Positions 4,673 through 53,616 of a DNA stretch of 64,000 bases are shown here, in pieces; position 1 is the stretch's first letter; every line of letters starts with the position of its first letter. Under the pieces are notes generated by a model. It was given only the letters and a program-made list of their open reading frames with translations, did no database searches and was not told the origin of the DNA. The translations under genes were made by a program, and so were the position numbers. Origin of the DNA: Planotetraspora silvatica (GTDB taxonomy: Bacteria; Actinomycetota; Actinomycetes; Streptosporangiales; Streptosporangiaceae); NCBI RefSeq assembly GCF_016863315.1, contig NZ_BOOQ01000003.1, positions 62,001 through 126,000 of the forward strand. Reading direction: 5' to 3'.

Positions 4673-4721
4673 GCCGTCTCCTCGGGGGTTCAACCCGGCG
4701 GGCGGTCCCGCTAACTGAAAA

Positions 4722-4812
4722 GAACCCCTCGCGCACCCGCCAGAGCCCGCTTATCCTTGCTGCCTTCCGGCCCTGGGGAGGTTCACAGGATGACGCCGCG
4801 CGAGGGGTCCGT
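4722..4812 (-). ncRNA. ffs: Bacterial small signal recognition particle RNA (4.5S type)
   Basis: On the reverse strand the apical loop reads GGCCGGAAGGCAGCAAGG with the following ATAAG, the invariant Ffh-binding tip of SRP RNA. The ends pair (GACCCCTCGCGC with GCGCGAGGGGTT), closing a single long hairpin of about 90 nt with no Alu domain. It would bind Ffh and target nascent membrane proteins to the translocon. Its position directly upstream of dnaX is common in bacteria. Ends are estimated from the terminal stem. Confidence 0.93.
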
Positions 4813-4907
4813 GGCACAGTCTAACCACTCCGGGCGGGTGCGCAGGCCGTGAAAACCCGCGAAAACCAGGGTCACTACATGGCCGAACGTCCGCTAAGCT
4901 GTTCGGC

Positions 4908-5051: not shown

Positions 5052-5364
5052 TGTCTCCGTCCTCATCGTGTGCTCAATCCCTGCTCCCGGCGTGTCCCAC
5101 GACAGGGAGGTCCACGTGACCCCCTCTAGGCGGGCGAGTCGGCCGGCCCGGCAAGGGTGAGGAGCCCTCGGGTCAGTACCTGAGGGTGGGTCACCATCGC
5201 CAGGCGCCCGACTCCCTTCAGCATGATCACCCGCATCCTGCGCTGGGCGCCGCATTAATTGCAATATGTCCGGTCATCGACGCGCCTGGTAGGGCAGGCA
5301 CTACCCCGGATGTGGGTGCGCGCAGGCTGGGGGCGTGATCGTCACCGTCCCTAACGTCGGGGTC
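5052..5364. other. Intergenic stretch before the lipase gene
   Basis: About 310 bases between the tRNA terminator and the secreted lipase. A locally AT-rich patch (TTAATTGCAATATG, near 5254-5268) is a plausible promoter area for the lipase. I see no open frame or structured RNA that I can defend. Confidence 0.4.
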
Positions 5365-21459: not shown

Positions 21460-21760
21460 CGTGATCATGCACAGGCTCGGGAAATGATGCCCTCACCAGC
21501 CAAACCTCCCAGCGTGATCATGCACAGGTTCGGAGATCGCCCGGCTGAGCTGCGGAAACTCACGGCGTGATCATGCGCGCATTCTGTCGAATCACCGCTG
21601 ACCTGCGACGACATTATTTGTGATCATGCACTGAACGGCCGGTGCATGATCACGAACGATGTTTTCGCAGGCGAGAGGCCACGATTCCGAACCTGCGCAT
21701 GATCACGAACGGCGAATGCGCAGGTCGGAGGGCATGATTACGAACCTGTGCATGATCACG
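21460..21760. repeat. Intergenic dyad array 1: 20-bp boxes at 53-bp period, right-pointing then left-pointing
   Basis: A 20-bp box, consensus CGTGATCATGCACAGGTTCG, occurs in forward orientation starting at 21460, 21513, 21566 and 21619, exactly 53 bp apart. It occurs in reverse complement ending at 21654, 21707 and 21760, again 53 bp apart. A partial extra copy of its core, GCATGATTACG, lies at 21732-21742. The innermost pair makes a perfect 12-bp inverted repeat (GTGATCATGCAC and GTGCATGATCAC) around a 10-nt loop. A second conserved motif, CTGAGCTG-like, lies 32 bp from the start of each forward unit (21492, 21545, 21598) and in mirrored positions on the right (21668, 21721). The remaining sequence between boxes is not conserved. 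The array fills the space between the divergent kinase and HTH genes. Confidence 0.93.
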
Positions 21761-32275: not shown

Positions 32276-33601
32276 ATGCCACTTACGACCGGAATCGGCC
32301 GAAACATCCGACAGGGTCGCACCCATGACAGGGAGATCCTGCGGCTGGCCGTCCCGGCGTTCGGGGCCCTCGTGGCCGAGCCGCTGTTCCTGCTCACCGA
32401 TTCGATCATCGTCGGACACCTTCCCGATCCGGCGCTGGGCGCCCTCGGCGTCGCCGGCGCGGCCCTGACGGCCCTCGTGGGCCTGTGCGTGTTCCTCGCG
32501 TACGCCACCACCGCCGCCGTGGCCCGGCAACTCGGGGCGGGCGACCTGCGGCGGGCGATGCGCCAGGGTGTCGACGGCATATGGCTGGCGGCCGCCATCG
32601 GCGTGGCGATCGGCGTGGCCTGCTGGTCTCTTGCGCCATTTATCGTACATCTGTTCGGAGCGACGGGCGACCTCGCCGCGCTGGCCGTCACGTTCATGCG
32701 GGTCAGCCTGCTGGGCACCCCGGGCATGCTCATCGTGCTCGCGGGGACCGGTGTGCTGCGCGGAATGCAGGACACCCGGACGCCGCTCGCCGTGTCGGTC
32801 GGCTCGTTCGTGCTCAACGGCCTGCTGAACCTCTGGTTCGTCCTGGGTCTGGGATGGGGCATCGCCGGGTCGGCGTGGGGGACGGTGATCGCGCAGACCC
32901 TGTCCGCCGCGGTCTACGTCACGCTCGTCGTGCGGGCGGCGCGGCGGCACGGCGCCTCGTTGCGGCCCGACCTGCCCGGCGTGCGCGCCGCGGGGGCCGC
33001 GGGCTTCGCCCTCGTCATCCGTACGGCATGCCTCCAGCTCGTGCTGCTCGTCGCGACGTCTCTCGCCACGAGGATGGGAGAGACCCAGATCGAGGCCCAC
33101 ACCATCGCCGCACGGCTCTGGACGTTCCTGGCGTTCTCCCTCGACGCCATCGCCATCGCGGGCCAGGCCATCACCGGCCGGGCACTCGGAGCTGGAGACG
33201 TCGCGGCCACCAGGTCGGCCACGAAACGCATGGTCATGTGGGGCGTCGTGTCGGGCATCGTGTTCGGCGTCGTGGTGCTCCTGGCCCGGCCCGTCATCCC
33301 CGGGCTGTTCGACGCGGACGACGCGGTGGCCGCGCAGCTGATGACGGCATTGTGGCCGGTGGCACTGTTCCAGCCCGTCGCGGGCATCGTCTTCGTCCTG
33401 GACGGCGTGCTCATCGGAGCCGGCGACCGGCGCTATCTCGCCTGGGCGTCGCTGTCGTCCACCCTCGTCTACCTGCCGTTCGCCACCTTCGCCGGAAGCC
33501 TGCTCGCGCTGTGGCTTGCGCTCGGCGCATGGATGGTCGCGCGCATGATCACCCTGAGCGTCCGCGCGTACGGCAGGGCCTGGATGGTGACGGGAGCCTG
33601 A
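32276..33601 (+). CDS. MATE-family efflux transporter (DinF-like)
   Basis: 441 residues with twelve predicted helices. The opening REILRLAVPAFGALVAEPLF with LLTDSIIVGHLPDPALGALG is the MATE start signature, and the second half repeats the pattern (TQIEAHTIAARLWTFLAFSL, then DAIAIAGQAITGRALGAGD). These transporters export organic cations or drugs using Na+ or H+. The ATG at 32276 lacks an obvious ribosome site, so the start is moderately certain. It converges on the ABC transporter genes with 11 bases between stops. Confidence 0.9.
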   Translation: MPLTTGIGRNIRQGRTHDREILRLAVPAFGALVAEPLFLLTDSIIVGHLPDPALGALGVAGAALTALVGLCVFLAYATTAAVARQLGAGDLRRAMRQGVDGIWLAAAIGVAIGVACWSLAPFIVHLFGATGDLAALAVTFMRVSLLGTPGMLIVLAGTGVLRGMQDTRTPLAVSVGSFVLNGLLNLWFVLGLGWGIAGSAWGTVIAQTLSAAVYVTLVVRAARRHGASLRPDLPGVRAAGAAGFALVIRTACLQLVLLVATSLATRMGETQIEAHTIAARLWTFLAFSLDAIAIAGQAITGRALGAGDVAATRSATKRMVMWGVVSGIVFGVVVLLARPVIPGLFDADDAVAAQLMTALWPVALFQPVAGIVFVLDGVLIGAGDRRYLAWASLSSTLVYLPFATFAGSLLALWLALGAWMVARMITLSVRAYGRAWMVTGA

Positions 33602-50424: not shown

Positions 50425-51708
50425 CTACAGGCTCGCCGCCGCCGCGACCATGGCCCGGGTGATCATCGCGATCTCCTCGGGCCGGCAGGCGTAGGGCGGC
50501 ATGGTGTAGAGCAGGCGCCCGAAGGGCCGGAGCCAGACGTCATGGTCCATCACGACGTCCTGAATTTTCGCAACATCCACTGGTTCGACCGTTTCGATGA
50601 CCCCGATCGCGCCCAGAACCCGGACGTCCTGGACCCCGGGCATGTGCACGGCTTCCGCCAGGCCGTCGAGGAGGGCCGCCTCGATCTGTTTGACCTCTTC
50701 CCGCCAGGGCCGTTCGGCCAGCAACTCGAGAGAGGCGTTCGCCACGGCCGTCGCGAGGGGGTTGCCCATGTAGGTCGGCCCGTGCATCAGGACGCCGATG
50801 CCGTCGGCGACCTCCTTGGTGCTCAGCGTCGCGGCCAGCGTCATGTATCCACCCGTCAGGGCCTTGCCGACGCACATGATGTCCGGCCTGATCCCCGCGT
50901 GGTCACAGCCGAACATCTCACCCGTCCGCCCGAAGCCGGTGGCGATCTCGTCGGCGATCAGCAGGACGCCGTGCTCGTCGGCGAGCTCACGGAGCCGGCG
51001 CAGGTACGCCGGATGGTAGAACCGCATGCCCCCCGCGCCCTGGACCACCGGTTCCACGATGATCGCGGCCAGCTCGTGCGCGTGCGCCGCGACAAGGGCC
51101 TCCAGTTCCCCGAGGTAGGCCGTGTCGGGGCGGGCTTCGACCGCCTCTCCCGGGCGGGAGCCGTACCCCCCTGGAGGGATCGGCGCGAAAACGTGCTGGG
51201 GCAGCAGGCCGGAGAACAGGTGATGCATGCCGTTGACCGGGTCACAGACCGACATCGCCCCGAAGGTGTCGCCGTGGTAGCCGCCGCGGACGGTGAGCAG
51301 CTTCGAACGGCCCGCGCCGCCGGTGGCCGCGGCGTACTGGAAGGCCATCTTGATGGCCACCTCGACGGCCACAGAACCGGAGTCGGCGAGGAACACCCGG
51401 TCCAGCCCCGTCATTCGGGCCAGCGTCCCGGCCAGCCGTACGGCGGGCTCGTGGGTGAGGCCGCCGAACATGACGTGAGCCATGTCGTCGAGCTGGTCGC
51501 GAACGGCCGCGTTGAGCCGGGGGTGGTTGTATCCGTGGATCGCGGCCCACCAGGACGACATGCCGTCGACGAGCTCACGACCGTCGGCCAGGGTCAGCCG
51601 CACGCCCTCCGCCCTGCGGACGGCGTGGACGGGAACGGTGGACGGCACAGCCGCGTACGGGTGCCACACATGATCCTCATCCATCCGAAGGATGTCCCCG
51701 TCGTTCAT
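50425..51708 (-). CDS. bioA: Adenosylmethionine-8-amino-7-oxononanoate aminotransferase
   Basis: 427 residues. It aminates KAPA to DAPA in biotin synthesis using SAM. Key features: HVWHPYA start, [15 protein letters not shown], the substrate-specific [27 protein letters not shown] with the PLP aspartate, the PLP lysine in [10 protein letters not shown], and [14 protein letters not shown]. No bioF, bioD or bioB is adjacent, so the gene is isolated from the rest of the pathway. Repeat array 2 begins 46 bases upstream of its start. Confidence 0.95.
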
Positions 51709-51754: not shown

Positions 51755-52110
51755 GCGTGATCATGCACAGGTTCGTGGAAAGCCCCTCTGAGCTGCCCTT
51801 TCCCCGGGCGTGATCATGCACGGGTTCGGGCGCAGGGCCACTGAACTGGGATTCCCCTATCCGTGATCATGCGCAGGTTCGGACACGGTGCCGTTCACCT
51901 GGGGTTTCTTGCTCCGTGATCATGCAGATCCTCGGAGCGTGCATGATCACGCCTGATGAACGCCCAGGTCGAATCCATTGATCGCGAACTTGCGCATGAT
52001 CACGATGTGCATCACACCTGCTCAACAGCCATGTGACCGAACTCGTGCATGATCACGCCAGGGATTCGGGCTGGTCATCGCCCATCCCACCGAACCTGTG
52101 CATGATCACG
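51755..52110. repeat. Intergenic dyad array 2: four right-pointing and four left-pointing 20-bp boxes
   Basis: Forward boxes (consensus CGTGATCATGCACAGGTTCG) start at 51755, 51809, 51862 and 51915, spaced 54, 53 and 53 bp. Reverse-complement boxes end at 51951, 52004, 52057 and 52110, each 53 bp apart. The central pair gives a perfect 12-bp inverted repeat (CGTGATCATGCA and TGCATGATCACG) with a 13-nt loop. The secondary motif lies about 32 bp into each forward unit (CTGAGCTG 51788, CTGAACTG 51841, TTCACCTG 51894) and at mirrored positions on the right (51965, 52018, 52071). The array lies between the bioA start and the cca stop, a different gene context from array 1. Confidence 0.95.
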
Positions 52111-52122
52111 CGCAAATGGTGG

Positions 52123-53616
52123 TCAGGGGAGGATGCCTTGGGAGTGGGCCCATTTCAGGAGGGCCTCCTTGGCGGCCTCCTTGCCGATCATGCCCTCGTC
52201 CATGCGGATGTCCAGCATGTGCTTGTAGGCCGTACCGATCACCGGACCGGGTGAGAGGCCGAGGATCTCCTGGATCTCGTTGCCGTCGAGCTCCGGCCGG
52301 ATCTTGGCCAGCTCCTCCTCCTCGGCCAGCCGGGAGATGCGTTCCTCCAGCTGGTCGTACGTCTGCGAGAGGGCGGCCGCCTTCCGCTTGTTGCGGGTCG
52401 TGCAGTCGGCTCGGGTCAATTTATGCAGCCGTTCCAGCAGATGTCCGGCATCACGGACGTACCGGCGGACCGCGCTGTCCGTCCACTCGCCTGAGCCGTA
52501 CCCGTGGAACCGCAGATGGAGCTCGACGAGCCGCGAAACGTCGGCCACGACGTCCTTGGGGAATTTGAGCTCGCTCATCCGCTTCTTGGCCATCTGGGCC
52601 CCGACCACCTCGTGGTGATGGAAGGAGACCCGGCCGCCGGGCTCGTTGCGGCGGGTCTTCGGCTTGCCCACGTCGTGCAGGAGCGCGGCCCACCGGAGCA
52701 CCCGGTCGGGGCCGGAGGTCTCCAGCCCCACCGCCTGTTCCAGCACGATCAATGTGTGCTCGTAGACGTCCTTGTGCCGGTGATGCTCGTCGATCTCCAG
52801 CCGAAGCTTGGGCAATTCGGGCAGGACGTGGGCCGCGAGGCCCGTGTCCACCAGCATGGCCAGGCCGTCACGCGGCCCGGCCCCGCAGATCAGCTTGTCC
52901 AGCTCCTCACGGATGCGCTCGGCCGACACGATCTCGATGCGGCCGGCCATCGCCGTCATCGCCTCGACGGCCTTCGGATCCACCGAGAAACCGAGCTGGG
53001 AGGCGAAGCGCGCCGCGCGGAGCATCCGCAGCGGATCGTCGTCGAACGAGTCCTCAGGCGCTCCCGGCGTGCGCAGCACCTTCGCCGCGAGGTCGGGCAG
53101 CCCGCCGAACGGGTCGACGAACTCGTGGCTCGGCACCCGGACCGCCATCGCGTTGACCGCGAAGTCCCGGCGGCGGAGGTCGCCGTCCAGCGTGTCGCCG
53201 TAGGACACCTCGGGTTTGCGCGAGGAGGGGTCGTACGACTCGCTGCGGTATGTGGTGATCTCCAGCTGCCAGCCGCCCTTGCGGACGCCGACCGTGCCGA
53301 AGTCGATCCCGATCGTCCAGACGGCCTCGGCCCAGTCCTTGACTATTTCCAGTACGCGCTCGGGCCTGGCGTCCGTGGTCAGATCGAGGTCATGGCCGAC
53401 ACGGCCGAGCAGGACGTCGCGGACGGAGCCGCCGACGAGGGCCAACTCGTGCCCGCGGGCCGCGAACAGCTCTCCGAGCTCGTCGGCCACCGGGGCAATG
53501 CGCCTGAACAGGTCATCTACGGCTCGCTGCTGGCGGTCGCTCAGATTTGAAACGGACAAGGCTGGGTAGGTCCTTCGGTCACGGAACGATTCTCCCCCGT
53601 CGCATCCTGGTGTCAC
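52123..53616 (-). CDS. cca: CCA tRNA nucleotidyltransferase
   Basis: About 497 residues if started at the GTG at 53616; homology begins near NLSDRQQRAVDDLF, so the first 20-25 residues are doubtful. The class II nucleotidyltransferase head has ALVGGSVRDVLLGRVGHDLD with the metal-binding Asp pair, RRRDFAVNAMA, DDDPLRMLRAARFASQLGF and ERIREEL. A C-terminal HD domain carries HDVGKPKT. It adds or repairs the 3' CCA, which matters because at least one tRNA here (4908) lacks an encoded CCA. A TATCCC box about 8 nt upstream could give a leaderless transcript. Confidence 0.93.
   Translation of the reverse strand: MTPGCDGGESFRDRRTYPALSVSNLSDRQQRAVDDLFRRIAPVADELGELFAARGHELALVGGSVRDVLLGRVGHDLDLTTDARPERVLEIVKDWAEAVWTIGIDFGTVGVRKGGWQLEITTYRSESYDPSSRKPEVSYGDTLDGDLRRRDFAVNAMAVRVPSHEFVDPFGGLPDLAAKVLRTPGAPEDSFDDDPLRMLRAARFASQLGFSVDPKAVEAMTAMAGRIEIVSAERIREELDKLICGAGPRDGLAMLVDTGLAAHVLPELPKLRLEIDEHHRHKDVYEHTLIVLEQAVGLETSGPDRVLRWAALLHDVGKPKTRRNEPGGRVSFHHHEVVGAQMAKKRMSELKFPKDVVADVSRLVELHLRFHGYGSGEWTDSAVRRYVRDAGHLLERLHKLTRADCTTRNKRKAAALSQTYDQLEERISRLAEEEELAKIRPELDGNEIQEILGLSPGPVIGTAYKHMLDIRMDEGMIGKEAAKEALLKWAHSQGILP

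Follow-up and report, generated by a model that had tools for sequence, protein, structure and literature searches.

Inward-facing arrays of a 53-bp unit between the genes of Planotetraspora silvatica: candidate protein scaffolds at transcription-unit boundaries

Here we describe an intergenic element of Planotetraspora silvatica, in which short DNA boxes recur at a rigid step of 53 bp, forming arms that face inward where two of them lie close together. The boxes are constrained at orthologous sites while the spacers between them drift, and the element keeps its position by vertical descent among the species of the genus and, at a subset of sites, between genera as well. We tentatively propose that the arrays are scaffolds for a putative sequence-specific DNA-binding protein, which would mark or insulate the boundaries of transcription units; the protein-DNA part of this reading, taken by itself, is in our opinion quite probable.

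In the window (the whole stretch of 64,000 nucleotides that was analysed) the element fills the gap between cca and bioA (array 2, 51756-52110), where four plus-strand boxes face four minus-strand boxes (Table 1). Each side is composed of three full boxes and one inner half box, and every one of the six box-to-box steps measures exactly 53 bp. At its outer edges the array leaves 12 bp to the cca stop codon and about 48 bp to the start of bioA. The preliminary description of this array had correctly recognised its 4+4 layout and its location between bioA and cca (confirmed with family models), placing the forward-box starts within 1 bp of those in Table 1 and the reverse-box ends exactly. Of the spacing of 53-54 bp given there, only the first value holds. 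The innermost box, rightly counted among the four of each arm, is not a full one, being shortened, as in other arms, to about GTGATCATGCA. Finally, the spacers do differ from those of the other array in the window, but not completely, since the units have a second conserved motif midway, of which the copies in array 2 are variant forms.

Table 1. Features of array 2, its flanking genes and array 1 (window positions)
Feature	Position	Strand	Basis
bioA	50425-51708	minus	family model
Box A1, full, CGTGATCATGCACAGGTTCG	51756..51775	+	sequence
Mid motif B, unit 1, TGAGCTGC (family consensus TGACCTGC)	51789..51796	+	sequence, consensus
Box A2, full	51809..51828	+	sequence
Mid motif B, unit 2, TGAACTGG	51842..51849	+	sequence, consensus
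Box A3, full	51862..51881	+	sequence
Mid motif B, unit 3, TCACCTGG	51895..51902	+	sequence, consensus
Box A4, inner truncated half box, CGTGATCATGCA, end of left arm	51915..51926	+	sequence
Centre of array 2, separating both arms (start-to-start measure 24)	51927..51939	.	
Box A5, inner truncated half box, right arm	51940..51951	-	sequence
Mid motif B, CGACCTGG	51964..51971	-	sequence, consensus
Box A6, full	51985..52004	-	sequence
Mid motif B, TGAGCAGG	52017..52024	-	sequence, consensus
Box A7, full	52038..52057	-	sequence
Mid motif B, TGACCAGC	52070..52077	-	sequence, consensus
Box A8, full, 12 bp off cca stop codon	52091..52110	-	sequence
cca	52123-53616	minus	family model
Array 1, same element, between histidine-kinase gene (minus) and HTH regulator gene (plus)	~21460..21760	.	

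The consensus of the unit was built from 601 box occurrences (the window plus loci L053-L154). It is 53 bp long and contains the box CGTGATCATGCAcaggTTCG and the mid motif TGACCTGC: box A, of the form CGTGATCATGCAC-agg-TTCGg, occupies unit positions 0-20, motif B positions 33-40, and the next box A begins at 53. Among same-strand neighbours no more than 130 bp apart in 2.02 Mb of the P. silvatica genome, 301 of 341 are separated by 53 bp, 17 by 52 bp and 2 by 54 bp. The remaining distances are scattered; those of 18 and 35 bp (4 each) reflect an extra box within a unit, and only 4 (41, 42, 62 and 64 bp) come near 53 bp minus or plus one helical turn. When distances from 45 to 61 bp were scanned in a wider set of loci, 568 out of 603 were exactly 53 bp. 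The arms (163 counted) mostly contain 3, 4 or 5 boxes (53, 65 and 35 arms, respectively), more rarely 2 (9 arms) or 6 (a single arm). The inner boxes of 67 full arrays are most commonly 24 bp apart, start to start (19 arrays), with 23 bp in 4 arrays and 77 bp (i.e. 24+53) in 5, and helical phasing of the arm-to-arm distance is weak (p=0.03 to 0.60, depending on the cut). Ahead of the outermost box of an arm there is a C-rich strip that lacks motif B and is found there regardless of the direction of the neighbouring gene (64 and 40 arms), which indicates that the element is defined on the DNA and not on a transcript. Some arms of P. kaengkrachanensis (L057, 4554-4773, and L286) carry extra boxes at about 20-30 bp at their outer ends, a local departure from the 53-bp rule.

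The 20-bp box pattern CGTGATCATGCNCNNNTTCG has 589 exact matches in the 8.66-Mb genome (308 forward and 281 reverse), and its backward-read control has none. Within the window, the pattern GTGATCATGC (at most 1 mismatch) occurs at 26 sites, compared with a mean of 4.4 and a maximum of 10 in 100 shuffles. Array 1 consists of four forward boxes, three reverse boxes and one displaced reverse copy with a single mismatch. Two lone minus-strand boxes (window 5221-5230 and 33541-33553) have no partners at 53 bp; a tRNA-Ser (gga) gene is situated about 230 bp from one of them, and near this gene lies a normal feature, the bacterial small SRP RNA (RF00169, window 4716-4813).

Placement was analysed in 2.02 of the 8.66 Mb (six contigs, long stretches), using our own GC3-based gene calls with unrefined starts. 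This part of the genome contains 105 arms at 71 sites, namely 34 double, 22 single forward and 15 single reverse. None of the 71 site midpoints falls within a called gene, and in an overlapping wider set that includes other species only 1 of 183 arms lies in a gene call. About 7% of the gaps hold an array, and the 64 arms located at 3' ends are a median of 15 bp from the called stop codon. Convergent gaps are over-represented (23 of 71 sites versus 195 of 978 gaps, p=0.009) and divergent gaps under-represented (9 of 71 versus 249 of 978, p=0.010), a modest, roughly twofold bias, with divergent gaps also holding arrays (e.g. array 1). The 589 matches and 71 sites bear out the initial proposal that the element is scattered over the chromosome in gene neighbourhoods unrelated to one another, and the many such intergenic sites support the view that it is not the operator of one gene. 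The possibility, raised at the same time, that only two arrays exist is contradicted by the 71 sites found in 2.02 Mb.

The orientation of the arms follows a clear rule. Opposite-strand neighbour boxes within 300 bp face inward in 35 cases and outward in one, where a lone box (C2:346753) precedes an arm; in the wider set, outward-ordered arms were found in none of 112 intergenic regions. Single arms separated by less than 3 kb form six pairs, all of them inward-facing as well, which enclose one or two ordinary genes and, once, only a doubtful short frame. One of the enclosed genes is typA (recognised by eye), and cobD/cbiB and fdhD are further bracketed genes. The uniform opposite orientation of single arms is limited to these six pairs: a general alternation was considered, as opposite neighbours outnumber same-orientation ones overall (22 versus 9, p=0.015), but it was rejected because beyond 4 kb the ratio is 16 versus 9. 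Between tandem genes the single arms are evenly split, 11 pointing along transcription and 11 the opposite way.

The cca-bioA gap carries the element in 5/5 Planotetraspora genomes (only remnants in G397); its position is therefore kept within the genus, in disagreement with the suggestion that the arrays may be unconserved in close relatives. At six orthologous loci shared with P. mira (out of seven aligned), the box core changed by 2.7%, motif B by 5.6% and the spacers by 18.4%; in the 28 units compared (units with more than 3 gaps were skipped here, as in the other per-unit comparison) box positions 3-10 are unchanged and the spacers have no gaps. The units were selected by a box match in the P. 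silvatica genome, which does not force a match in the relative. The same order is seen with P. kaengkrachanensis (six of ten loci, 25 units; core 6.1%, motif B 17.5%, spacers 38.5%), where gaps affect about 9-10% of the array positions, and with G396 (one locus; 10.9, 22.9 and 60.7%, respectively, no gaps). Gaps take up 56-78% of the array at the two loci that bear the label phitsanulokensis/G397; taken together with the gaps in P. kaengkrachanensis, this means that spacer length is not inviolable. The arrays of G397 are decaying: this genome has 157 box pairs, compared with 600-757 in its four congeners.

Two explanations of this pattern were tried and rejected. Spacers differ from those of P. 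mira more than 4-fold codon sites do (18.4% versus 7.8%), which might suggest faster-than-neutral change; however, the 4-fold sites are probably held by codon bias, and we therefore claim only that the spacers look unconstrained. Gene conversion as the cause of box identity does not fit the P. mira comparison, in which the number of changes in a unit follows a binomial distribution (mean 4.64, variance 3.87). In the P. kaengkrachanensis comparison the per-unit variance is 11.4 versus 5.95, and gene conversion may have operated there.

Related elements with other boxes occur in further genera of the family. Among 341 family genomes, exact-core box pairs number 560 in G457 and 1-15 in five species of g301. 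Genus g301 uses its own dialect, with the outer box CGTGATCTTGTAGTTTGTCGCA (present in 5 of 15 species) and inner boxes CGTGATC(A/T)TGCA, the same motif B and the same 53 bp, often in 3+3 arrays; box pairs of this dialect number 208 in G553, 63 in G544, 57 in G548 and 45 in G432 (genus g270). The dialects of G396 and G457 are CGTGATCATGCAGAAcTTCGG and CGTGATCATGCAcaggTTCCc, respectively. Across the dialects the consensus of motif B, (T/C)GACCTGC, is constant and the box tails drift. The centre of g301 arrays is 11 bp shorter than that of Planotetraspora by the same measure (15 bp in 12 out of 17 counts, with one site or more entered twice, versus 26 bp), which is suggestive only.

Several sites are common to more than one genus (tilS, the L209/L109 gap, C2:235 kb, C3:295 kb, fdhD and C26:7.5-8.8 kb), and at several of them, e.g. 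tilS and around fdhD, both the position and the single or double state are kept although the boxes differ. Of eight distinct g301/G432 sites with a flanking gene mapping to the 2.02 Mb, four are matched by an array at the corresponding position in P. silvatica and four are not, according to our reading, with two of the four relying on one flanking gene with a 55% match. The tilS loci of 30 relatives include 9 with an array (among them G550), 20 without and one unreadable; nine species of g301 are among those without, as are G432 and G457, which bear arrays elsewhere. The absence of arrays from some close relatives implies that their function is dispensable. A one-gene tree bearing on gain or loss of the arrays in g301 mixes bearers and non-bearers, but the gene used looks locally recombined (G550 versus G545: 98.6% in the gene, 94-95% in its flanks), which makes sister status within g301 unsure.

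The 12-mer CGTGATCATGCA occurs in 246 of 394 class genomes, nearly all having 0-8 copies, while its reversed control reaches at most 1 per genome. Its enrichment is patchy and extends to four further actinobacterial families: P. silvatica has 751 copies, G062 (f5) 288, G812 and G494 (f101) 287 and 35, G937 and G853 (f109) 100 and 29, G797 (f103) 22, and G544 (g301) 20. Boxes in the loci read from other families stand alone, in pairs or in short series; their outer flanks are C-rich and their tails differ from family to family. Neighbours within 100 bp outside the family of P. silvatica are convergent in 9 cases, divergent in 1 and tandem in 27. Judging from the shared core, these boxes may belong to the same system. 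One locus of G448, from the same family as P. silvatica, has an outward pair. In the distant actinobacterium G062 (L216, L225-L230, L399-L402) the core mostly carries the tail ATCCCGCCACCC in the loci read, and several arrays have a second inverted repeat, AGAATGCTGG...CCAGCATTCT, at their centre. G797 (L383 and L384; tail GTTGWTGT) and G784 (L379) have nearly perfect palindromes, about 60 bp long, that begin and end with the core; one of them adjoins what appears, by eye, to be the end of a tRNA gene. Among the matches listed from IMG/VR there are 34 viral stretches, with one exact box match each.

The anatomy of the arrays offers clues to how they might act. An arm, with its usual 3-5 boxes spaced by 53 bp, would be a scaffold for one or more putative DNA-binding proteins recognising box A and motif B and assembling along the DNA with a fixed ruler of 53 bp, i.e. 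about five helical turns, up to the truncated inner box. Head-to-head arms, adjacent or flanking a gene, could thereby give rise to a symmetric complex that marks a transcription-unit boundary, acting as an insulator or a roadblock; the facing arms might also loop together. The rigid spacing, the midway motif, the truncated inner end and the constraint on boxes argue for proteins on double-stranded DNA and not for RNA, as does the indifference to transcription direction. A boundary role is the weakest step of this proposal; judged from placement alone, i.e. the excess of convergent and the deficit of divergent gaps, it is the most likely one. Several observations speak against the scaffold reading: the even orientation of single arms between tandem genes is unlike known polar roadblocks, and arrays are missing here from half of the eight cross-genus sites and from tilS of G432 and G457. 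The modest context bias, the variable spacer length, the weak helical phasing and the absence of arrays from some close relatives weigh on the same side. A bolder version, to which we attach little credence, would regard the arms as polar boundary elements of a putative bacterial architectural protein, its core site CGTGATCATGCA being actinobacteria-wide and the dialects co-evolving with the protein.

If the arms instead paired in the transcript, they would form a long hairpin acting as a bidirectional terminator or being processed, and a structured RNA had also been suggested in the preliminary description. The strand of array 2 folds far better than shuffles (z -12.7), but such a fold follows from the inverted layout. 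The preference for convergent gaps and the 1+1 palindromes of other families agree with this possibility, as does a slightly greater likeness of mirrored than of non-mirrored spacers (0.404, n=166, versus 0.373, n=403); units within one arm are, however, equally alike in their spacers (0.405). Mirrored boxes are no more similar at the three variable positions than non-mirrored boxes (0.528 versus 0.540), and an arm-to-arm hairpin was rejected for want of compensatory variation in the boxes. So was a stem between box A and motif B, whose consensus sequences are complementary (GCACAGGT / ACCTGCGC) yet do not covary. Moreover, 37 of the 71 sites have a single arm only, a state kept across genera at tilS, and no Rfam family exceeds its gathering score at array 2; the suggestion of an RNA is thus unsupported and we consider it distinctly unlikely. 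Centromere-like or nucleoid-organising sites, serving segregation or compaction of spore chromosomes, would explain arrays of direct repeats that have fixed spacing, as in plasmid centromeres, and are widely dispersed. DnaA-like boxes on contig C3, of which the window covers positions 62001-126000, are densest at 134-141 kb (5 of the 19 regex hits on this contig), loosely pointing to a putative origin, but sites are sparser on C3 (19 per Mb) than on any of the other five contigs (32, 32, 39, 45 and 67 per Mb). No array occurs at C3:113.9-292.6 kb (178 kb, where about 3 would be expected at the mean density of C3), which leaves the putative origin without arrays over about 20 kb in one direction and 150 kb in the opposite one. 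The proposed link with oriC is therefore unsupported, clustering of the parS type near oriC being absent from the 2.02 of 8.66 Mb covered, with the origin placed by DnaA-like boxes only. As some species also have no array at the tested sites, this role appears quite improbable.

The high copy number could also be due to mobility. The ends of Tn7-like elements contain several transposase sites, and REP/REPIN elements are mobilised by RAYT transposases; a mobile or selfish repeat of the REPIN type, or a miniature transposon with multi-site ends, might owe its spread and persistence to a transposase. Compatible with this are the hundreds of copies, their inward orientation, a patchy distribution across families and a tilS array present in some g301 species and absent from others. 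With the RAYT/Y1 family PF01797 as the transposase looked for, matches were obtained in 7 of 24 genomes, including the bearers G396, G432 and G544, but most array-bearing genomes lack them (none in P. silvatica, P. mira, P. kaengkrachanensis, G397, G457, G553, G548, G062, G812, G494, G937, G853 and G797), and a REPIN/RAYT system was rejected on this ground. Boxes constrained at single orthologous sites with drifting spacers also tell against mobility, and an alignment of tilS from nine g301 species revealed neither a target-site duplication nor a simple empty site. We regard a mobile origin as unlikely, although the transposon ancestry raised in the preliminary description keeps some probability. 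Another type of repeat reaching patchy high copy numbers is the DNA-uptake signal, such as the DUS of Neisseriaceae, which would accumulate via biased uptake of kin DNA. The shared 12-mer core with lineage-specific tails recalls its dialects; the lack of sites in called genes (0 of 71), the rigid 53-bp arrays with a second motif and the conserved positions make this explanation very improbable.

The scaffold reading, if correct, is of broader interest. We know of no bacterial chromosome with scores of rigid, symmetric multi-box scaffold arrays among its housekeeping genes. Related species with and without arrays (non-bearers are G545, G547, G551, G552, G463 and G776), together with one whose arrays are decaying (G397), provide a built-in test, and the cognate protein would reveal whether chromosome boundaries of an insulator type, or a new mode of ending transcription, exist in bacteria. 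Searches of the open literature with motif strings and topic terms returned no description of such arrays; the only actinobacterial match to a motif string is a predicted ArgR site of Streptomyces coelicolor (PMC5839063), from which we conclude nothing.

It is instructive to compare the arrays with known systems. Like REP/REPIN elements, they are short intergenic sequences present in hundreds of copies, frequently paired in inverted orientation, with outer heads that are conserved (paired inverted repeats occur at 34 of the 71 sites), but they differ in being rigid multi-box structures with boxes constrained at orthologous sites, mostly without a Y1 transposase. Plasmid centromeres such as sopC of F, with its 43-bp repeats, share direct repeats spaced near a whole number of helical turns; such a centromere is, however, one plasmid locus, whereas here there are many chromosomal sites with two facing arms. 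Repeats of about 20 bp, spacers of constant length (about 33 bp) and a degenerate last repeat are also typical of CRISPR, and software could call the arrays as such, but here the spacers share motif B and many tiny arrays are dispersed in facing pairs. Orthologous spacers differ by scattered point changes in the P. mira comparison, not by gain and loss of whole units, which tells against CRISPR. The stoperators of mycobacteriophage L5 and its relatives, repressor sites that have been proposed to halt elongation (PMC9283540), resemble the boxes as short asymmetric protein-binding sites (putative in our case) dispersed in intergenic spaces, a location found here for all 71 site midpoints. They are 13-mers that follow transcription in a phage genome, while the arrays described in this study have 3-5 boxes at 53 bp on bacterial chromosomes, in arms that face inward and whose direction is not tied to transcription. 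In the bolder version given above, the facing arms would be comparable to convergent CTCF sites, joining or holding two points and fencing off single genes or neighbourhoods.
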